Assembly: GCF_004345605.1 (NCBI RefSeq)
Contig: NZ_SLVY01000005.1
Span: 310,001 to 374,000 of the forward strand
Reading direction: 5' to 3'
Origin: Rhodococcus sp. SMB37
GTDB taxonomy: Bacteria; Actinomycetota; Actinomycetes; Mycobacteriales; Mycobacteriaceae
Length of the DNA: 64,000 nucleotides
Shown here piece by piece: positions 2 through 28,199 of this stretch. The position numbers and the translations under genes were made by a program. Position 1 is the stretch's first letter. Each line of letters starts with the position of its first letter. Below the pieces are notes generated by a model. It saw only the letters and a list, made by a program, of their open reading frames with translations, did no database searches and was not told the origin of the DNA.

Positions 2-523
2 GCGGTTGCGGTGCCCGGCGCTGCCACCTCCGAGGGGCATCCGTTCGGCGTGATGGTGGTGGTGCCCGGGTTCGACGACCAGGTGGCGGTCGACATTGCG
101 GCGCACCTCACCGGCGTCGAAGCACCGACGTTCGTCGACGCCGGAGTCGAGCTGGCGGTATTCGGCGCCCACCTGCGGGGTCAGCCGTTGCATTTCCAGC
201 TCGAAGACATCGGTGCCCGTTTCTCCGAGCAGGTGCACACCTCGGACTCGTACCGGTTGATGGCGCTGAACACCACTCCGCCGAAGCCCGGCCTGGTACG
301 CCACAGCGCCGGTGAGGGCGCCGCGATCGTCGGCGAGCTGTTCCGGGTATCCGAGGCCGGGCTGGGCAGGTTCCTCGCGGCCCTGCCGGCACCGATGACA
401 CTCACGAGCGTCGAACTCTCGGATGGTCGCTGGGTCGTCGGATTCGGCTGCACCCACGATGCATCCGCCGACGCCGTCGACATCACCGGATTCGGCGGTT
501 GGGTGGCGTACACGACGAGTTGA
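2..523 (+). CDS. Allophanate hydrolase, C-terminal part (5' truncated by window edge)
   Basis: The reading frame is open from the first bases of the window, so this is the 3' end of a longer gene; about 173 residues are visible. The sequence matches the C-terminal domain of allophanate hydrolases (AtzF/DUR1 type): a GAHLRGQPLHFQL block near the start, PPKPGLVR in the middle and a closing ITGFGGWVAY. In this family the N-terminal amidase-signature domain cleaves allophanate and the C-terminal domain completes its breakdown to ammonia and CO2, as the second step of urea amidolyase metabolism. The amidase half and any urea carboxylase would lie to the left, outside the window. A GTG at position 11 is merely an internal valine. 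Family call is good; substrate specificity rests on the family only. Confidence 0.85.
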   Translation, partial: AVAVPGAATSEGHPFGVMVVVPGFDDQVAVDIAAHLTGVEAPTFVDAGVELAVFGAHLRGQPLHFQLEDIGARFSEQVHTSDSYRLMALNTTPPKPGLVRHSAGEGAAIVGELFRVSEAGLGRFLAALPAPMTLTSVELSDGRWVVGFGCTHDASADAVDITGFGGWVAYTTS

Positions 524-594
524 AAGGCATGTCGTCCGGAGCGGGATACGGCAGGATATCGTTCCCGAGGTAGACGACGAAGGGATGACGGGCG

Positions 595-1284
595 ATGCCG
601 GACCAGGACGAACGATTGAGCCGGATCATGGCTGACCTTGCTCGTTCGATGTCGGACGAGACCGATCTCGAGTCGTCCCTCGAACGCCTGACTGCAGCCG
701 CGGTCGAACTGATTCCCGGTGCCGACACTGCCGGGATCCTGATGGTCACCGGACCGTCCGAGTTCGAGTCACACGCCGCCACCTCCGAGTTGACGAGACG
801 GGTGGACAAGATCCAAGCAGAGCTCGGCGAGGGCCCGTGCGTCGATGCCGCGCTGGAAGCGGAGATGACACACACCGCCGACCTGCGATCGGAGCCGCGG
901 TGGCCGCGGTTCTCCGCAGCAGCGGTCGAGGCAGGCGTGCTCAGCATGTTGTCGTTCCGGCTGTTCACGCATGGCGACGAGTCGGGCGCCCTCAACCTGT
1001 TCGCGGCCGAACCCGGTTCGTTCGATGCCGAGTCGATGCACGTCGGCGGGGTCCTCGCGGCGCACGCCGCGATCGCGGTCCTCTCGTCCCGCAAGGAACT
1101 GCAGTTCAAGTCTGCACTCGCCAGCCGCGACCTGATCGGTCAGGCCAAGGGCATGCTCATGGAGCGGTTTGCCGTGAGGGCCGAACAGGCCTTCCAGATG
1201 ATCGTGCGGCTGTCGCAGGAGACGAATACGCCCGTCTCGGTGATCGCGGCCCGGATTGTGGAGGCCGGTCCGGGCCGCAACTGA
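595..1284 (+). CDS. GAF and ANTAR domain regulator
   Basis: A 229-residue cytoplasmic protein with a GAF sensor domain (about residues 20-160) followed by an ANTAR domain (about 168-222, with the typical DLIGQAKGMLMERF and a hydrophobic helix around VSVIAARIV). ANTAR proteins bind paired RNA hairpins and act as antiterminators; the GAF domain presumably senses a small molecule or redox state. No histidine kinase partner is adjacent, which fits the actinobacterial GAF-ANTAR group that work without phosphorelay. Start chosen at the ATG preceded by AAGGGA. It follows the allophanate hydrolase by 71 bp and is convergent with the cupin gene. Its RNA targets cannot be seen here. Confidence 0.85.
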   Translation: MPDQDERLSRIMADLARSMSDETDLESSLERLTAAAVELIPGADTAGILMVTGPSEFESHAATSELTRRVDKIQAELGEGPCVDAALEAEMTHTADLRSEPRWPRFSAAAVEAGVLSMLSFRLFTHGDESGALNLFAAEPGSFDAESMHVGGVLAAHAAIAVLSSRKELQFKSALASRDLIGQAKGMLMERFAVRAEQAFQMIVRLSQETNTPVSVIAARIVEAGPGRN

Positions 1285-1301
1285 GTGCTACGGGCGACCG
1301 G

Positions 1302-1640
1302 TCAGCGCAGGATCGTCAGCATCACCACGGAGTCGGCGTTGGCAACGAGCTTGTGCATCACGCCCTCGTCGACGTGGACCGCGACACCCGGGACGAGCGA
1401 GACCGTCTTCTCAGCAGTACTGAACGACACGTCGCCGCTCGTCGCCTGCACGAGGATCGGTGCCGGCGCACGGTGGTCCTTCAGTACCTGGCCCTGCGCG
1501 AAACCCATTCGGATCACGGTGGCCCCCGCACCCGAGGCAAGCTTCTCGAGACGCGGGGCGTCGCCGTCTTTCTTGTCGAGGTGCGTGAGCCCCTCGATCA
1601 CGGTCATCGTTCCGGCCGAACCGCTGGAGTCACTCATCAT
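1302..1640 (-). CDS. Small cupin-domain protein
   Basis: A 112-residue single-domain cupin. The body (about residues 40-110) has the cupin beta-barrel pattern, with a GFAQGQVLKDHRAPAP motif 1 region and a PGVAVHVDEGVMHKL motif 2 region; the latter keeps a histidine before the last strand but the first motif has only one histidine, so metal binding may be incomplete. Its start overlaps the stop of the upstream methyltransferase (ATGA arrangement), so the two are translationally coupled. It is the last gene of an ATPase-methyltransferase-cupin operon. Cupins of this size can be enzymes, binding proteins or storage proteins; nothing in the sequence decides among them. Confidence 0.75.
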   Translation of the reverse strand: MMSDSSGSAGTMTVIEGLTHLDKKDGDAPRLEKLASGAGATVIRMGFAQGQVLKDHRAPAPILVQATSGDVSFSTAEKTVSLVPGVAVHVDEGVMHKLVANADSVVMLTILR

Positions 1641-2449
1641 GCCGCCTTCTTGGTCGCGATGATCTCGATCGCGACGAGATGTTTCTTGTACTTCGTGAAC
1701 GTCGAACGCATCTGCAGCACGCGCGCGCGAGCGTCGGAGTCCCGCAGTACGTTTCCCACGAATTTCACAGTACCCACGAGACCTTCATCGGCAAGGATGC
1801 GCTGAGGTTCGAGGAGAGCCATCGGGGCGAAACCCACGGTCTCGACCTCGAATCCGGCGTCGGTGAGGAGCTTCGTCCATTCGGCCGCGGTGAGCGGCCG
1901 CGCGTTGACCTTGATGGACCGTGCAAGCGACTTGCGGATCTCGTTCTTGACCTCGTCATCGACCTCGTCGGGCTCGATCGCGAGTTCGTGGATCGCGTAG
2001 CGCCCGCCCGGACGCAGCACGCGCAGCGCCTCTTCGATGATCTGAGTCTTGTGCTTGTCGGTCTGCATCGTGAGCATTGCCTCTCCGACGACGACATCCG
2101 CGGTCGCGTCGTCGAGCCCGGTCTTCGATGCCTCACCGCTGACCACCGTGCCGGCAGACCCGAGGACCTTACGAGTCAGATCGGCTGCGCTTTCGTCGGA
2201 TTCGACACCGGTATAGCTCTTCGGGGCGAACTCCAGGATGCTCTGCGCGGTTCGCCCCAGCCCGGGAGCGAATTCGACGACATCGACGCCACGCAACTTC
2301 GCGTCGGTCAGCATCCGCGCGGTCAGCTCCTTGCCTCCGGGCCGCAGGACACGCTTGCCGAGCCGTGCAAGCAGCCAGTGTCCGGGCAGATGGGCAGCAT
2401 CCCGATCGGCCAACGGCAGTGCGTCGTCTGCTCCGTGCTTGTCGTTCAT
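1637..2449 (-). CDS. Class I SAM-dependent methyltransferase
   Basis: About 270 residues with a Rossmann-type methyltransferase core: motif I VVEFAPGLGRT (around residues 55-65), an acidic strand-2 end in YTGVESDE, and the post-motif LRVLRPGGRYAIHEL. The family moves a methyl group from S-adenosylmethionine to an unknown acceptor. The ATG at 2449 was chosen over an upstream in-frame codon at 2470 because GAGAGGGG lies just before it. It begins 29 nt after the stop of the ABC ATPase, with no room for a convincing separate promoter, and overlaps the downstream cupin start, so the three genes look like one transcript. A link between methylation and the transported substrate is inferred from this layout only. 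Confidence 0.8.
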   Translation of the reverse strand: MNDKHGADDALPLADRDAAHLPGHWLLARLGKRVLRPGGKELTARMLTDAKLRGVDVVEFAPGLGRTAQSILEFAPKSYTGVESDESAADLTRKVLGSAGTVVSGEASKTGLDDATADVVVGEAMLTMQTDKHKTQIIEEALRVLRPGGRYAIHELAIEPDEVDDEVKNEIRKSLARSIKVNARPLTAAEWTKLLTDAGFEVETVGFAPMALLEPQRILADEGLVGTVKFVGNVLRDSDARARVLQMRSTFTKYKKHLVAIEIIATKKAA

Positions 2450-2477
2450 GGTCGACCCCTCTCGCTGCACATCCTAT

Positions 2478-3089
2478 TTACAGGAATAATGTACGGTAAT
2501 TTCCCATGGTGGTGAATATGTCGGTGATCTCATGCGCGGTCATCAGCACGCCCGCCCCCTCTGCCGCGACTCGCCCCAGCGCAACGCCCACGGTCTTCGC
2601 CGACGCAGAGTCCAGATGCGCGAACGGTTCGTCGGCGAATACCACCGAGGGGCGCGCGAACAATGCTCGGGCGAGAGCCGCGCGACGCTGCATCCCGCCC
2701 GACAATCGGAAGGGCGGTAGATGCGCGACATCTCTGAGCCCGACCTCGTCGAGCGCACTCTCGACGTCCGGGCGGGGCCCCGGCCTCCACACATCTCGTC
2801 CGGGCGCACCGAGCAGAACATTTCTCTCCACGGACATCCACGGCAACAGCCGTGCCTCCTGGAACAGCATTCCCTGCCGCTCGCACCAGCGGGTGACGGT
2901 GCCCGACGACGGTTCGAGCAATCCGGCGGCGGCGTGCAGCACCGTGGTTTTTCCCAGCCCGGACTCGCCGAGTATCACCAGGATTTCACCGGCGTCGAGT
3001 CGTAACGACACGTCGTCGACTATCACGCTGCCTCCGCGGGACAGACCCACCTTGTCGAGTTCGATCAAAGGATCTCCGTGAACCGTCAT
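2478..3089 (-). CDS. ABC transporter ATPase, SsuB/TauB-like
   Basis: A 203-residue ABC ATPase with Walker A GESGLGKTT (residues 41-49), Q-loop glutamine about 77, signature LSGGMQ (129-134), Walker B SVVFADEP (148-155) and H-loop His186. It resembles the nitrate/sulfonate/taurine importer ATPases but is shorter than most of them (about 240-260 residues). The ATG at 3089 has GAGGGG five bases upstream; an adjacent in-frame ATG at 3092 is possible. The 5' ends of this gene and the divergent substrate-binding protein overlap by about 12 bp, so each promoter must lie inside the other gene. It forms the importer with the binding protein and permease on the other strand and is followed by a methyltransferase and a cupin. 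Confidence 0.85.
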   Translation of the reverse strand: MTVHGDPLIELDKVGLSRGGSVIVDDVSLRLDAGEILVILGESGLGKTTVLHAAAGLLEPSSGTVTRWCERQGMLFQEARLLPWMSVERNVLLGAPGRDVWRPGPRPDVESALDEVGLRDVAHLPPFRLSGGMQRRAALARALFARPSVVFADEPFAHLDSASAKTVGVALGRVAAEGAGVLMTAHEITDIFTTMGNYRTLFL

Positions 3090-4103
3090 CATTTCCCCTC
3101 GAGGATTCGCGCACTGGTCGTCACACTGTCTGTCGCCACGATGCTGCTCACCGCATGCGGCACCGACGACGATGCGGCGGCCTGCGGAGCCGAGACCACC
3201 GTGAGCGGCGCCGGCTCGGGCCTGCCCGACTCCCTGAACGTCGGTGTCGCGAACAACGTGGCAATGGCTGCGCCGTTGACCGGGCTCGACGACATCGGGG
3301 TCGCCACCACCTCGACGAGTACCGCGAGTACTCCGGAAGAGTTGCGCACCAACTTCATTGCCGGAAATTACGATCTCGCCGCCATGCCGATCAACATCGC
3401 GGCGAACCTGTGTGCGCAGGGTATCGATCTCGTTCTCGTCGGCACGGTGAGCGGGAACATCGTGTATTTGATGGGCCCCGAAGGCACCACGCTGGACGAT
3501 CTGCGCGGACAGACCGTCCACATCCCGTTCCAGAACGACATCATCGATCTGGTGACTCGGCAGATCCTCGACACCGCCGGGATGACCTATGCCGGCGAAA
3601 ATCCCGATGTGAACCTGCAATACCACCCCACACCACTCGACATCGCGACCGGATTGACGTCGGGGTCGATGCAGTACGCGATCCTGCCGGAGCACCTCTC
3701 GACGGTGGTCGCCGGAGCAAGCGACAACATCGCCGAAGCGCAGAGCATGCAGGACCTGTGGGTGGAGCAGACCGCAGCGTCGTCTCTGCCGTTCGCCGGA
3801 TTCGTGCTCCGCGGCGAAGTAGCGCGCGAGTATCCGGATCTCGTCGGCGCCCTGCAGACCACTCTGCTCGGCTCGGTCATCGAGGTCGTGTCCGACCCTC
3901 AGCAGGGCGCAGTCGCGGTCAGCGACATCGTCCCGATCCCCGCCAACGTGGTCGGGCAGGTCCTGCCGGAATTGCGACCTACCTACCTGCCTGCCGCAGA
4001 GGGACGCGCCGATACAGAGTTGCTCTACGAGTCGCTCATGAGGACGGTGCCGGATTCGATCGGCGGCGAGATGCCTGCCGACGGCTTCTACGGCGCGAGC
4101 TGA
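3078..4103 (+). CDS. ABC transporter substrate-binding lipoprotein, NMT1/SsuA-like
   Basis: A 341-residue lipoprotein: the signal peptide ends in a lipobox LLTAC with the lipidated cysteine at residue 27. The mature part has the periplasmic-binding fold of the NMT1/THI5/SsuA group, with IPFQNDIIDLVTRQIL as the conserved lobe-switch helix. These proteins deliver alkylsulfonates, pyrimidines, riboflavin-like or other small organics to the membrane permease; the ligand cannot be named. GTG start at 3078 with AAAGGA upstream. The permease follows after 5 nt. The gene overlaps the divergent ATPase gene at its 5' end, an unusual arrangement for an importer whose parts must be made together. Confidence 0.85.
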   Translation: MNRHHFPSRIRALVVTLSVATMLLTACGTDDDAAACGAETTVSGAGSGLPDSLNVGVANNVAMAAPLTGLDDIGVATTSTSTASTPEELRTNFIAGNYDLAAMPINIAANLCAQGIDLVLVGTVSGNIVYLMGPEGTTLDDLRGQTVHIPFQNDIIDLVTRQILDTAGMTYAGENPDVNLQYHPTPLDIATGLTSGSMQYAILPEHLSTVVAGASDNIAEAQSMQDLWVEQTAASSLPFAGFVLRGEVAREYPDLVGALQTTLLGSVIEVVSDPQQGAVAVSDIVPIPANVVGQVLPELRPTYLPAAEGRADTELLYESLMRTVPDSIGGEMPADGFYGAS

Positions 4104-22520: not shown

Positions 22521-22841
22521 ATGCGTAAGACCATCATGACCGCACTGCTCACCGGCGCCGCAGCTCTGACGATCGGAACAGGATTCGCCGCAGCCGATTC
22601 CGCGCCCAGCGTCGTCGGAATGGAAGAGCACGCAGCCGCCTCCACGCTCTCCGCCAACGGTACGCCGTACTCGGTCACCAACCGCTCGGGGAACATCTCC
22701 GGCACCTGCGCGGTGACCGAGCAGCGCGACCGCGGCTACCGGACCGAGACCGAATCGACGTACAACTCCCGCACCGACAGCTGGGAAAGCAAGGAAACCA
22801 AGATCTGGCGCGGCATCGGATTGACCATCGTATGCCGCTGA
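22521..22841 (+). CDS. Small secreted PASTA-like protein
   Basis: A 106-residue protein with a Sec signal peptide (MRKTIMTALLTGAAALTIG, probable cleavage after AAA about residue 30). The mature part opens with PSVVGMEEHAAASTLSANG, which has the spacing of a single PASTA repeat, and ends with a Cys pair (GTCAV and the C-terminal IVCR) likely to form a disulfide. PASTA domains bind peptidoglycan fragments or beta-lactams. ATG at 22521 with GGGAG nine bases upstream. Followed after 77 bp by a PspC microprotein and preceded by element A, suggesting an envelope-stress cassette. Confidence 0.7.
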   Translation: MRKTIMTALLTGAAALTIGTGFAAADSAPSVVGMEEHAAASTLSANGTPYSVTNRSGNISGTCAVTEQRDRGYRTETESTYNSRTDSWESKETKIWRGIGLTIVCR

Positions 22842-22918
22842 CACCCAGCGTTGTCTCCGACGTACCGATGCCCACCCACTCGACTGTTCACATATCCCAC
22901 AAGGAGGACGAAAACCTC

Positions 22919-23119
22919 ATGACCTTCGACAACAACCCGCCGCGTCCGTTCATCCGCTCGACCTCGCAGCGCATGCTCGGTGGCGTATGCGGCGGAATCG
23001 CCGAATACTTCGGTATCGATACCAATCTCGTACGGGCCGGCGCGGTCCTCACTGCCTTCCTCACCGGCGGCACCGCAGTCCTGCTGTACCTCGCACTCTG
23101 GATCATTCTGCCGGAATGA
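22919..23119 (+). CDS. PspC-domain microprotein 1
   Basis: A 66-residue protein made of one PspC domain: a basic N terminus, SQRMLGGVCGGIAEYFGID amphipathic region and one transmembrane segment (about residues 42-64). PspC proteins are inner-membrane parts of phage-shock/envelope stress responses. ATG at 22919, with AAGGAGG twelve bases upstream. Probably co-transcribed with the PASTA-like gene; differs from PspC microprotein 2 at about 15 of 66 positions, so the two arose by tandem duplication. Confidence 0.85.
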   Translation: MTFDNNPPRPFIRSTSQRMLGGVCGGIAEYFGIDTNLVRAGAVLTAFLTGGTAVLLYLALWIILPE

Positions 23120-23189: not shown

Positions 23190-23227
23190 AAGTTCAGGGT
23201 GAAGATCGGGGCGTGGCCCTGATGTGC
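23190..23227 (+). promoter_or_regulatory. Conserved upstream element, copy B
   Basis: A 38-bp block with the same ends (AAGTTCAGGGT ... GATGTGC) and length as element A at 22411-22448, placed 29 bp before the second PspC gene. It suggests that this gene has its own promoter answering the same signal. Confidence 0.5.
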
Positions 23228-23256
23228 ACACACTCGACAAGGAGCACGATTACCTC

Positions 23257-23457
23257 ATGACCTTCGACAGCAACACACCCCGCACCTTCACCCGCTCGAC
23301 CTCCAAGCGCATGCTCGGCGGCGTCTGCGGAGGAATCGCCGAATACTTCGGCATCGACGTCAACATCGTCCGTGCCGCTGCCGTGGTTGCGTCCTTCATC
23401 ACCGGCGGCACCGCAATCCTGCTGTACCTCGCACTCTGGGTGATCATCCCAGAATGA
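23257..23457 (+). CDS. PspC-domain microprotein 2
   Basis: A 66-residue paralogue of the preceding gene, with the same SKRMLGGVCGGIAEYFGID block and a single C-terminal transmembrane segment ending in LWVIIPE. ATG at 23257 with AAGGAG upstream. It has its own copy of the conserved upstream element and is followed by a shared hairpin terminator. Full-length PspC proteins of mycolate bacteria are far larger, so these are minimal forms. Confidence 0.85.
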   Translation: MTFDSNTPRTFTRSTSKRMLGGVCGGIAEYFGIDVNIVRAAAVVASFITGGTAILLYLALWVIIPE

Positions 23458-23463
23458 CAGCGC

Positions 23464-23503
23464 AAAGGCCGTGAATCCCGGAGAGACGAGATCCACGGCC
23501 TTT
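23464..23503. terminator. Bidirectional terminator between PspC2 and the micro-ORFs
   Basis: AAAGGCCGTG and CACGGCCTTT form a perfect 10-bp stem around a 20-nt loop. With A-rich and T-rich ends on either side, it can end both the PspC transcript (+) and the micro-ORF transcript (-). Confidence 0.75.
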
Positions 23504-23516
23504 CAACACTTCCGAC

Positions 23517-23609
23517 CTACAGCGACCCGGTGAGTAGCGCCGGCGCAATGGCCAGTACGAGCCCAATGAGCTGGTTGATGACTTCGAGACCGCCGGTAAT
23601 ACTGCCCAT
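23517..23609 (-). CDS. Unannotated hydrophobic micro-ORF of 30 codons (porin-peptide-like)
   Basis: ATG at 23609 preceded by GGAGGAAAG at ideal distance; 30 codons to a TAG. The peptide starts MGSITGGLEV, is hydrophobic in the middle (LIGLVLAIAPALL) and ends TGSL, with almost no charge apart from one Glu. It shares the MGS start and the Ser near the C terminus with the upstream micro-ORF. Such tiny hydrophobic peptides beside groEL2 recall the PorA/PorH cell-wall channel peptides of Corynebacterium, which are mycoloylated on serine. No sequence match is claimed; the ribosome site, promoter and context are the evidence. A toxin-type or leader peptide is the main alternative. Confidence 0.65.
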   Translation of the reverse strand: MGSITGGLEVINQLIGLVLAIAPALLTGSL

Positions 23610-23627
23610 CTTTCCTCCAGTGTGTCG

Positions 23628-23648
23628 CCGGAAGCCTCACACTTCCGG
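23628..23648 (-). other. Intercistronic hairpin between the two micro-ORFs
   Basis: CCGGAAG-N7-CTTCCGG, a perfect 7-bp stem between the two micro-ORFs and just ahead of the second ribosome site. It may set their relative amounts by attenuation or mRNA protection. Confidence 0.5.
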
Positions 23649-23674
23649 ACGTCGGATCAACAGATTCAGTGGAT

Positions 23675-23752
23675 TCAGCTGAGGAATTCTGCGCTCTGCG
23701 AAAGCAACGAGAAGATGAAGGTGATGATTTCGGTGATGGTAGTGCTACCCAT
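23675..23752 (-). CDS. Unannotated amphipathic micro-ORF of 25 codons (porin-peptide-like)
   Basis: ATG at 23752 with AGGAGG seven bases upstream; 25 codons to TGA. The peptide begins MGSTTITEII, continues with a Phe/Ile/Leu face and five serines (residues 3, 15, 18, 20, 25), and ends in AEFLS. It is the first gene behind a good sigma-70-type promoter (23825-23853) and is followed 65 bp later by the 30-codon micro-ORF. Both peptides lie downstream of two mycolyltransferases and groEL2 on the same strand. By analogy with Corynebacterium PorA/PorH, it could be one subunit of a two-peptide mycomembrane channel; this is inference. Confidence 0.65.
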   Translation of the reverse strand: MGSTTITEIITFIFSLLSQSAEFLS

Positions 23753-23824
23753 TGATCCTCCTACGCCCGGATGGTTGAGGTGATGCGGCACTGACGAACT
23801 CGATAACACGGTGTGCCGTAACTC

Positions 23825-23853
23825 ACATTACGACACGGCATCGGAAGCGTCAA
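23825..23853 (-). promoter_or_regulatory. Sigma-70-type promoter of the micro-ORF operon
   Basis: On the minus strand, TTGACG (23853-23848) and TAATGT (23830-23825) are separated by exactly 17 bp. This gives a start near 23818 and a leader of about 65 nt before the first micro-ORF. It is among the best promoter matches in the window, implying strong expression. Confidence 0.65.
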
Positions 23854-23977
23854 TGATGTTGCGTAAGAATTTATTTGAAACTACAAGACCCGAACATAGT
23901 GAACTGCACTAGATCTCGATTACGACACCAAAGGTAGGCCGCCCCGCCGGAAGCCGGGCTGCGAGCAACTCACGCGA

Positions 23978-24979
23978 TCACAATCCGATAGAACCCGCGA
24001 TCATCGGCCAGGAGGCGTGGAGGTCGTCCTGCCAATAGCCCCACGAATGCGTTCCATGGGAGCGGAATTCGAATGTCGCGGGGATGTCCAGTTCCTCGAG
24101 CCGGGTCGCCAGGCGATGCGTACAATCGTTCACCGCAGCCTCGATGACACCCCCGACAACGATCTGATTCAACAAAAGCCCAGGATCGCCCTCGACCGAT
24201 CTCGCCCCCAGGTTCTCGTGCGCCCCCGGCAGCCCGGTCGCAGACGAGATGTACAGGTCGATACCCCGCAACTTCTCCGCGTTGACGTACGGGTCGTTCG
24301 CGGCCCAACCGGGCCCATCGAGCGGGCCCCACATGTTCTCGACGTCCGCCTCCCCACGACTCTCGACGACGGTACGGACATAGAGTTGCCCCAGCTCCGT
24401 ACTGGTCTCGGCACACCCGCTGTACGCCCCGACCGCCTCGTACAGCGACGGTTCCTCGATCGCCAGACTCAAGACCGATGTACCCGACATCGACAGACCC
24501 GCAATCGCGTTCACACCCGTGGTGCCGAACGCCTCGTCCACGATCGGCGGCAGCTCCTGCGTAAGGAACGTCGTCCATTTGTTGCGGCCGAGCGCCGGAT
24601 CGTCGCGTTCCCAATCGGTGTAATAGGTGAACGACCCATCGAGCGGCGTGACGACGTTGACATTCTTGTCAGCGAAGAACTCGTCGATATCGGTACGGGC
24701 GTCCCATGTGGCCTTCCCCTCCCCGCCTCCTGCCCCATTGAGCAGGTACAGCGTGGGCCGCGGAACGCTCGCGTCGGCCGGTGTCCGCACCCGGAGAGGG
24801 ACGACCCGATCCATCGCCGCCGAGTAGACGTGCGCGACGACCGTACGATCTGCCTCGATCTCGATGCGAGACAGACTCGAAACGGGTTCGGCGGCAACTT
24901 CACTCGCGAATACCGCTGACGACACACATGTAAGAGCGGCAACCGACAACGCCGCACACGTTCGCCGGAACGAGACCAC
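23978..24979 (-). CDS. Mycolyltransferase, antigen 85/Cmt family (copy 1)
   Basis: A 333-residue exported alpha/beta hydrolase: signal peptide (about residues 1-31, ending VAAEP), oxyanion region YLLNGAGGG, nucleophile GLSMSG, and the catalytic histidine in HGTHSWGYW near the C terminus. These enzymes move mycolic acids between trehalose monomycolate and arabinogalactan, trehalose or, in Corynebacterium MytC, serines of small porins. Two cysteines (GCAETS, NDCTHR) probably pair. Closely related to the next gene upstream (same YTDWERDD, NKWTTFLT blocks). Preceded by a GTCAC-N6-GTCAA direct repeat shared with that paralogue. Located between it and the micro-ORFs. Confidence 0.9.
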   Translation of the reverse strand: MVSFRRTCAALSVAALTCVSSAVFASEVAAEPVSSLSRIEIEADRTVVAHVYSAAMDRVVPLRVRTPADASVPRPTLYLLNGAGGGEGKATWDARTDIDEFFADKNVNVVTPLDGSFTYYTDWERDDPALGRNKWTTFLTQELPPIVDEAFGTTGVNAIAGLSMSGTSVLSLAIEEPSLYEAVGAYSGCAETSTELGQLYVRTVVESRGEADVENMWGPLDGPGWAANDPYVNAEKLRGIDLYISSATGLPGAHENLGARSVEGDPGLLLNQIVVGGVIEAAVNDCTHRLATRLEELDIPATFEFRSHGTHSWGYWQDDLHASWPMIAGSIGL

Positions 24980-25179: not shown

Positions 25180-25255
25180 ACAACCCGATGGGTACCGCCG
25201 CCGTCACAACCCGATGGGTACCGCCGCCGTCACAACCCGATGGCTGCCGCCATCA
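25180..25255. repeat. 26-bp tandem repeat at the 3' end of mycolyltransferase copy 2
   Basis: Two identical 26-bp units (25180-25205 and 25206-25231, beginning ACAACCCGATGGGTACC) abut a third diverged unit (25232-25255) that is the gene's own last codons. Each unit carries a stop triplet at the same place on the gene strand, so the coding end has been copied twice downstream. Confidence 0.85.
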
Positions 25256-26252
25256 TGGGCCACGACTTGTGCAGATCGTCCTCCCAGTAATCCCACGAAT
25301 GCGTACCGTTCCGCCATTCGAAGTGAGCGGGAATCTCCAACTCCTCGAGCCGCTCCGCGAGGCGCGTCGTGCAGTGGTGCACGGCCGCTTCGATGCTCCC
25401 GCCGACGACGAGCTGCCCCACGAGACCGAGCGGGTCGTAGTTGATCGACCTCGAACTCAACTGATCGTGCTCCCCTGGAAGGCCTGTTGCCGCCGACACG
25501 TACAACTCGACCCCGCGGAGCTTCTCCGCATTGAGATACGGGTCGTTCTCGATCCACCCCGGCCCACCGACCGGGCCCCACATGTTCTCGGGGTCGCCGC
25601 CCTTGGCCCGCACTACGGCCTGGACGTACGCCTGCCCCACCGGAGTACTCGTCTCTGCGCAGCCACTGTAGGCACCGACAGCGCGGTACAGCTCGGGTGC
25701 GGCGGTCGCCAGGCCGAGCACCGATGTGCCCGACATCGACAGACCCGCAATCGCATTGGCTCCAGTGGTCTCGAACTGCTCGTCGATGATGGGCGGCAAC
25801 TCCTCGGTGAGGAACGTCGTCCACTTGTTGCGGCCGAGCTCCGGATCGTCCCGCTCCCAGTCGGTGTAGTAGCTGTAGCGTCCGCCCAGCGGAGTCACCA
25901 CGTTGACGTTCTTGTCGGCGAAGAACTCATCGACGTCCGTCTGCTCGTCCCACGTGGCAATACCCTGGCCACCGCCCGATCCGTTGAGCAGATACAGCGT
26001 GGGCCGTGGCTCACTGGTGTCGGCCGGCATCCGCACCCGGAGCGGCACGACGGTATCCATCGACGCCGAATACACGTGCGCGATGACCGTACGGTCGTTC
26101 TCCACCTCGATGTGCGACAACTCCGAGGTTCGCTCACCGGCGGTCGACGATCCCGGACCGGGTTCGGCCGATGCCCCCGCCGGTACACACACAGCGGCCG
26201 CCAGTCCGACCGTCACCGCACCACACACACGTCGGAACCACATCGACCCCAT
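25230..26252 (-). CDS. Mycolyltransferase, antigen 85/Cmt family (copy 2)
   Basis: About 340 residues with a signal peptide (cleavage near GASAEP), oxyanion region YLLNGSGGG, nucleophile GLSMSG and histidine in NGTHSWDYW. Very similar to copy 1 over the whole mature region, so the pair is a duplication. Exports to the periplasm/mycomembrane and transfers mycoloyl groups. ATG at 26252 is preceded by GGGGTGGG; ATG 26243 is an alternative. Its 3' end carries an odd 26-bp tandem repeat of the stop region. The promoter region shares a GTCAC-N6-GTCAA repeat and a TTTCTACAC block with copy 1. Confidence 0.9.
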   Translation of the reverse strand: MGSMWFRRVCGAVTVGLAAAVCVPAGASAEPGPGSSTAGERTSELSHIEVENDRTVIAHVYSASMDTVVPLRVRMPADTSEPRPTLYLLNGSGGGQGIATWDEQTDVDEFFADKNVNVVTPLGGRYSYYTDWERDDPELGRNKWTTFLTEELPPIIDEQFETTGANAIAGLSMSGTSVLGLATAAPELYRAVGAYSGCAETSTPVGQAYVQAVVRAKGGDPENMWGPVGGPGWIENDPYLNAEKLRGVELYVSAATGLPGEHDQLSSRSINYDPLGLVGQLVVGGSIEAAVHHCTTRLAERLEELEIPAHFEWRNGTHSWDYWEDDLHKSWPMMAAAIGL

Positions 26253-26365
26253 GAACCCACCCCTTCGCAAACTGCCTGATCCCACGACACATCACGACGA
26301 CCCGCCCAGCGCTCCCCGACAAGCCCCGAATTACACGCCTGTTTCTACACGATCCCCACCGGAAG

Positions 26366-26492: not shown

Positions 26493-28199
<1,707 letters not shown>

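Follow-up and report, generated by a model that had tools for sequence, protein, structure and literature searches.

Two tandem micropeptide genes downstream of groEL2 in Rhodococcus, candidates for a mycoloylated mycomembrane peptide pair

Two micro-ORFs that lie in tandem on the minus strand of the window (the whole 64-kb stretch of Rhodococcus sp. SMB37 DNA that was analyzed) are almost certainly real protein-coding genes. We propose, with a probability of about 0.7, that they are a co-transcribed pair for tiny alpha-helical mycomembrane peptides, which would be mycoloylated and would assemble into a small oligomeric channel. Taken separately, and judged from sequence, it is quite likely that the products are mycoloylated mycomembrane peptides, and about an even bet that the peptides form a channel pair. 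Protein O-mycoloylation and helical micro-porins have so far been worked out in Corynebacterium; if the pairs described here are mycoloylated, both the modification and the micro-porin strategy extend to rhodococci. Micropeptides of this size are of the kind that gene callers tend to miss.

Expression signals and coding evidence of the two micro-ORFs

The two micro-ORFs, of 25 and 30 codons, have strong Shine-Dalgarno (SD) sites, and their minus-strand coordinates in the original prediction were confirmed (Table 1). Also present, as had been claimed, are a TTGACG-17-TAATGT promoter, which starts 101 nt ahead of the peptide 1 ATG, and a 7-bp hairpin, which folds as described. The promoter is kept at 8/8 congeneric loci although much of the surrounding sequence has diverged, and the spacer between the -35 and -10 elements measures 17 nt in seven of these loci and 18 nt in one; none of eight more distant loci matched the pattern. 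Six of the eight congeneric loci (all except G004 and G012) have a stem with a 5-nt loop ahead of the peptide 2 SD site in their minimum-energy fold. The claim of a terminator held in part: the long stem 3' of peptide 2 folds, and such a stem lies at most 90 nt after peptide 2 in the minimum-energy folds of all eight congeneric loci, but a T-run is absent and a generic consensus scan of positions 23400-24000 reported neither a promoter nor a terminator. Because the final stem lacks a T-run, its label as a terminator comes from its position and recurrence.

Table 1. Features of the locus, with positions in the window
Feature	Position	Strand	Evidence
Peptide 1 gene (predicted), 25 aa, MGSTTITEIITFIFSLLSQSAEFLS	23675..23752	-	ORF list, codon-level conservation
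Peptide 2 gene (predicted), 30 aa, MGSITGGLEVINQLIGLVLAIAPALLTGSL	23517..23609	-	ORF list, codon-level conservation
Shine-Dalgarno AGGAGG of peptide 1	23757..23762	-	AGGAGG in 8/8 aligned congeneric loci
Shine-Dalgarno GGAGG of peptide 2	23614..23618	-	Sequence
-35 element TTGACG	23848..23853	-	TTGAC[G/C] at 8/8 congeneric loci
-10 element TAATGT, 17 nt past -35	23825..23830	-	TA[AGT][TG]GT at 8/8 congeneric loci
Intergenic hairpin, 7-bp stem, just 5' of the peptide 2 SD	23628..23648	-	Minimum-energy fold
Long stem-loop 3' of peptide 2, probable terminator, without T-run	23464..23503	-	Fold
groEL2-type chaperonin ORF heading the locus	26493..28151	-	Pfam Cpn60_TCP1
Second Cmt1-type mycoloyltransferase (predicted)	25230..26285	-	Pfam Esterase, 119 bits
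Cmt1-type mycoloyltransferase (predicted), immediately upstream of the peptides	23978..24979	-	Pfam Esterase, 104 bits

Both peptides begin with Met-Gly, and the predicted masses of the window copies without Met are 2606 and 2804 Da. The net charge is -2 for peptide 1 and -1 for peptide 2, and Lys and Arg are absent from both. Their best alpha-helical moments over 18 residues were matched by 0.5% (peptide 1) and 0.8% (peptide 2) of 5000 shuffles, and the beta moments of both were ordinary in comparison with shuffles. When the alpha-helical test was applied to six micropeptides from other clades, two passed clearly.

A filter for ATG micro-ORFs with an SD site and a hydrophobic product retained six ORFs in the 64-kb window (the pair, one within a PspC gene, and three others) versus one in the reversed window. 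Conservation of the reading frames with synonymous bias, on which the original prediction had staked itself, was found among the eight congeneric copies: both frames are intact in 8/8, change is biased toward third codon positions, and pN/pS is low. The minimum numbers of substitutions at codon positions 1, 2, and 3 are 10/4/20 for peptide 1 (position-3 excess, shuffle test, P = 0.002) and 18/8/31 for peptide 2 (P = 0.0003). Relative to the window copy, pN/pS ranges from 0.02 to 0.24 in the six congeneric peptide 1 copies that differ (the seventh is identical), from 0.16 to 0.66 in the seven congeneric peptide 2 copies, and up to 0.79 in copies from other genera, all of these comparisons being non-independent because they share branches. 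Residues Met1, Gly2, Ser3, Thr4, Thr5, Phe12, Phe14, and the C-terminal Ser25 are invariant in 15 peptide 1 sequences, as are Met1, Gly2, Ser3, Gly7, Leu17, Pro23, Thr27, Ser29, and Leu30 in 12 peptide 2 sequences. The very short length of the ORFs, together with the absence of a match for either peptide in Pfam (E up to 1, PF09203 included) and NCBIfam (E up to 10, models for PorA, PorH, and PorACj included), would fit chance ORFs within an untranslated or regulatory region, but the frame-specific constraint, the intact frames, and the recurrence in other genera make that explanation hardly credible.

A longer peptide 1 frame, starting from the GTG at position 23809, is not favored, since the stretch ahead of the SD site is gapped and shows little identity, whereas the SD site and the ATG stay fixed. 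We also rejected the whole-genome occurrence of an SD site followed by ATG-Gly-Ser as evidence, because the pattern has 70 matches versus 62 in a backward control and is uninformative.

Layout and distribution of the locus

The source assembly of the window comprises 6.2 Mb in 52 contigs. In the order of minus-strand transcription, the locus consists of the groEL2-type gene, two Esterase-domain genes, peptide 1, and peptide 2, and the two mycoloyltransferase genes are the only sizable genes identified between groEL2 and the micropeptides. Matches to the groEL2-type ORF in the fetched loci of the family sample are 81 to 99% identical; the true start of this ORF may be a Met 11 codons inside the listed frame. 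Two tandem PspC-domain ORFs (22832-23119 and 23224-23457, plus strand) are convergent with the micropeptide genes, and PspC matches lie inside the stretch at 8 of the 12 named loci described below.

Compared with solved structures, the product of the mycoloyltransferase gene nearer to the peptides scored 268 bits against Cmt1, 157 against PS1, and 105 against Ag85-A, and that of the second gene scored 249, 162, and 100 bits, respectively. No solved structure matches either enzyme better than Cmt1 does, PS1 and Ag85 included, and by this measure both enzymes are of the Cmt1 type. Four other mycoloyltransferases of the genome were compared in the same way; two are nearest to Cmt1 (292 and 259 bits) and two to PS1 (184 bits versus 176 for Cmt1, and 329 versus 151). 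In eight stretches around 9 of the 11 other matches in the same genome, no convincing micro-ORF was seen; one ORF, at L219, passes the micro-ORF filter. Given the two further Cmt1-type paralogues and the lack of a convincing micro-ORF in the eight stretches, the strong claim that the upstream enzymes are dedicated to the peptides was rejected.

To map the pair beyond the window, a profile of peptide 1 was run against 301 family genomes and gave rows in 33 of them at E up to 1. Seventeen of the 301 genomes are counted as carriers, namely, 16 with E below 1e-4 and G029, where E is 0.014 and the peptide 2 match reaches 5.5e-7; the other 16 weak rows were taken as chance matches. One weak row, at L055, falls in a different array of small peptides. 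A second small peptide lies just behind peptide 1 in 17/17 carriers. In 14 carriers, the peptide 2 profile matches it and covers 29 or all of the 30 positions; in the remaining ones, it is cut by the contig end (G283) or is divergent and was recognized by inspection (G122 and G144). A further peptide 2 row (below 1e-3) in G191 lies within a 549-residue frame and was not counted. Within the genus of the window, 8 of 18 genomes, the window's included, have the pair and 10 do not.

A scan for the motif MGSTT[ILV][TV][ED][ILV][IV] in a species-level genome collection, which may omit records very close to the window, matched 17 stretches, 12 of which were confirmed. These 12 loci come from Jongsikchunia kroppenstedtii and from 11 Rhodococcus records, among which are a metagenome-assembled genome and R. 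coprophilus, R. jostii, R. rhodnii, R. spelaei, and R. marinonascens. Peptide 1 is identical to the window copy in Rhodococcus sp. HNM0563 and JCM 9791, and R. jostii NBRC 16295 is among the carriers of the pair. Nine of the 12 named loci have groEL2 at most about 6 kb upstream, and 10 have a mycoloyltransferase at a distance of up to about 6 kb (a weak partial match at L077 and a divergent one at L075); L073 sits at a contig end, and at the Jongsikchunia locus (L078) both groEL2 and a mycoloyltransferase are absent within 6 kb. In Rhodococcus sp. HNM0569 and R. rhodnii, the peptides start 338 and 1036 bp past groEL2, respectively, and no mycoloyltransferase intervenes. The mycoloyltransferase closest to the R. 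spelaei pair is divergent, and groEL2 probably lies about 21 kb away.

In two genomes of the window's genus, G004 and G008, the pair is located away from groEL2. The G008 pair is accompanied by a MEIFEIIKLVGS... micropeptide a few kilobases upstream (L226, 6643-6765, minus strand), and groEL2 is about 29 kb off. Apparent duplications occur in R. rhodnii, which has two copies of peptide 2 (L074, 6152-6356), and in R. marinonascens, which has two pairs and one further small ORF (L077, 6001-7714). A search of literature titles gave, among the matches listed, none on such Rhodococcus peptides, a negative that is no proof of absence because subscription journals are thinly covered.

Known systems, proposed mechanism, and rival explanations

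In Corynebacterium, the porH-porA genes are located between groEL2 and ppk2 (PMC3792995, PMC5944148). The O-mycoloylation sites mapped there include Ser15 of PorA, Ser56 of the 57 residues of PorH, and the penultimate Ser37 of ProtX (PMC5310785); PorA Ser15 sits in a loop between helices (PMC11927696), and Cmt1 of C. glutamicum is described as the enzyme that O-mycoloylates PorA and PorH. As far as the accessible text of these sources goes, PorH and PorA of C. glutamicum are two small alpha-helical peptides without an identifiable signal sequence, as the window pair may be, and resemble the pair in being encoded by adjacent genes past groEL2; the acceptor serine of PorH is penultimate, as is the conserved Ser29 of the 30 residues of window peptide 2. 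They differ in length (57 and 45 residues versus 25 and 30) and in gene order, since two mycoloyltransferase genes separate groEL2 from the peptides in the window, whereas Rhodococcus sp. HNM0569 and R. rhodnii have none in that position, like porH-porA. With the NCBIfam models, no homology of the window pair to PorA or PorH is detectable. Because neither PorA, PorH, nor PorACj models match, the peptides are not filed in those families, but they may work like them. The original prediction of a PorA/PorH analogue is in line with a conserved pair downstream of groEL2 that has Cmt1-type neighbors, an alpha-amphipathic character by moment analysis, and invariant serines, and it does not extend to homology.

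Short channel formers are also described in other corynebacteria. PorACj of C. jeikeium (40 aa) and PorACur of C. urealyticum (37 aa) are groEL2-linked and predicted to be alpha-helical as well, but they are reported as single-peptide channels and are longer than the window peptides, which the NCBIfam model PorACj_fam leaves unmatched. Within the text available from the literature surveyed, PorACur is the smallest channel former, and both window peptides are shorter. ProtX (cg2875), compared by description, is likewise a tiny mycoloylated mycomembrane peptide with its acceptor at a penultimate serine; its gene lies apart from porH-porA (Cgp_3009/3008), and the passages at hand describe no partner.

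Three matches to the MspA family (PF09203) were found in the genome of the window. MspA-type porins have a beta-barrel fold. The Rhodococcus channels that appear in the accessible parts of the literature surveyed are MspA-like; PorARr, PorBRr, and PorARc are, as proposed for the pair, mycomembrane channels of Rhodococcus, but they are far larger (180 and 234 aa in mature form in R. ruber) and have signal peptides. Given the three matches, the idea that a missing MspA is the reason for micro-porins was rejected, and the peptides need not be the main channel.

Under the proposed mechanism, both peptides would be translated from a promoter of their own and exported without the help of a classical signal peptide. 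Mycolic acid would be transferred to the serines of the conserved Gly-Ser or to a C-terminal serine by mycoloyltransferases of the Cmt1 type, such as the two whose genes directly precede the pair. The lipidated helices would then insert into the mycomembrane and assemble, most likely together, into an oligomer serving as a small channel. We infer export, mycoloylation, and oligomerization from the placement of the serines (Gly2-Ser3, the end of peptide 1, and the penultimate position of peptide 2) combined with the mapped sites and the O-mycoloylome, and the pairing and the porH-porA-like position suggest a two-subunit assembly.

The locus evidence fits equally well mycoloylated mycomembrane proteins that are not channels and have a structural or anchoring role, similar to ProtX, a small mycoloylated peptide to which the text available assigns no function, and the three MspA-family matches are compatible with such a role. 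The presence of two different, paired peptides in a porH-porA-like position argues against it, and we regard this alternative as rather unlikely but deserving of serious weight. Less probable still are explanations in which the peptides have no connection to the mycomembrane. Inner membranes commonly contain small hydrophobic peptides, and the window peptides could be small proteins of the inner membrane or type I toxins; given the linkage to mycoloyltransferases, the porH-porA-like position, and the absence of any Rfam family on either strand of positions 23400-24000 (E up to 1), we consider this improbable.

A secreted, leaderless two-peptide bacteriocin or a membrane-active toxin pair would also consist of two small hydrophobic amphipathic peptides encoded in tandem, without leaders and with a Met-Gly start. 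Leaderless bacteriocins are, however, mostly cationic, and the window peptides are negatively charged and free of Lys and Arg. With the purifying selection, the recurring chromosomal locus, and mycoloyltransferase genes as the only sizable ones identified between groEL2 and the peptides, a bacteriocin or toxin pair becomes very improbable, and a mycoloylated channel pair remains the explanation that we prefer.

Micropeptides downstream of groEL2 across the family

In each of 111 genomes, a stretch of at most 6.5 kb past the groEL2 gene was surveyed; the set is made up of the window, 10 congeneric genomes, and 100 of 121 from the family sample. The 100 family genomes were picked before the stretches were inspected (20 were left out, and the remaining one is represented by the window); the congeneric G010, in which groEL2 is fragmented, is outside the 111. 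Candidates were defined as hydrophobic, Lys/Arg/His-poor micro-ORFs of 18 to 70 codons with an SD-preceded ATG and were counted at positions 200-4000. The 111 stretches hold 77 candidates on the groEL2 strand versus 8 on the opposite strand. Among 109 stretches (two shorter than 2500 bases were dropped), a candidate is present in 29 of the 38 with a mycoloyltransferase versus 10 of the 71 without (Fisher's test, P = 1e-10, which ignores phylogeny). On the opposite strand, which served as a control, the counts tilt in the same direction (7/38 versus 1/71), partly owing to ORFs antisense to the enzyme genes that get through the filter. At least one candidate was found in 11 of 30 genera, a few of these candidates looking spurious, and none in the other 19 genera.

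The micropeptides at the groEL2 site differ between clades. Candidates and a mycoloyltransferase occur together in seven genera (g1, g4, g10, g14, g22, g24, and g26) other than g3. Genus g3 may be Corynebacterium-like, to go by one PorH match: among four of its groEL2-downstream peptides that were tested, one scores 34.6 bits with the NCBIfam PorH model, above the cut-off of 30, one touches a PorA model below the cut-off, and two are without any match. In the genus to which the window belongs, four genomes have a single peptide type that begins with MEIIELIGS or MDVIELIGS. In these genomes (G003, G005, G009, and G013; L016-L019, L109, L207, L208, and L210), one peptide of 35 to 36 aa, MEIIELIGSALELLGG... 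or MDVIELIGS..., replaces the pair. An unrelated tandem pair, MGSLADIIGW... and MIGSLLDLITP..., is seen in G001 and G007 (L214 and L215), with one extra peptide ahead of it in G001. No micropeptide was seen downstream of groEL2 in G006 and G017.

The dipeptide Gly-Ser recurs among the groEL2-downstream micropeptides, in which it is enriched about 3-fold. In 45 of the 77 candidates, retained after removal of close relatives, Gly-Ser occurs 65 times versus a shuffle mean of 23.4 and a maximum of 38 (2000 shuffles). It is present in 38 of the 45 peptides, and the reverse order, Ser-Gly, is below expectation (14 versus 23.5). The 45 still include many related sequences; under a stricter rule that disregards Gly-Ser-containing triplets and leaves about 13 peptides per draw, Gly-Ser occurs 16.4 times versus 5.5 expected, and a count as high as the observed one came up in 2 of 20,000 shuffles. 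In a rough control of long ORFs from the same stretches with relatives in other genera, antisense ORFs included, Gly-Ser is less frequent than Ser-Gly (422 versus 561). Most of the few g3 peptides are without Gly-Ser.

These patterns lead to a broader hypothesis, which we advance tentatively and hold to be somewhat short of probable. The groEL2 locus could be a family-wide site of fast-changing mycoloylated micropeptides of about 20 to 60 residues, unrelated-looking across the seven non-g3 genera with a mycoloyltransferase in the stretch, in which the shared, directional Gly-Ser would be the O-mycoloylation acceptor, and the Rhodococcus peptides would be smaller than any outer-membrane channel subunit known so far. 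Were Gly-Ser shared in this way, acceptor sites could be sought by bioinformatics. In the accessible text on the O-mycoloylome, the sites are described amid Ser, Gly, and Ala with no strict consensus, and the Gly-Ser enrichment of the micropeptides agrees with the Ser/Gly-rich surroundings reported there (PMC11066868). Ser15 of PorA and Ser56 of PorH in C. glutamicum are, going by the same kind of partial text, not preceded by Gly, which makes Gly-Ser as the acceptor a guess. In the last draw, the residue that follows Gly-Ser is mostly Leu, Ala, or Ile.

Genus g4 has one to three pairs of peptides of about 47 to 58 aa between groEL2 and the mycoloyltransferase (L189-L194 and L196), and one g4 peptide has a weak PorACj_fam match below the cut-off. 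A third type of peptide, in which MGSI is followed by a short hydrophobic stretch that contains ELY, was observed in two genera (L045, L052, L116, and L118) and lies near either the pair or a mycoloyltransferase.
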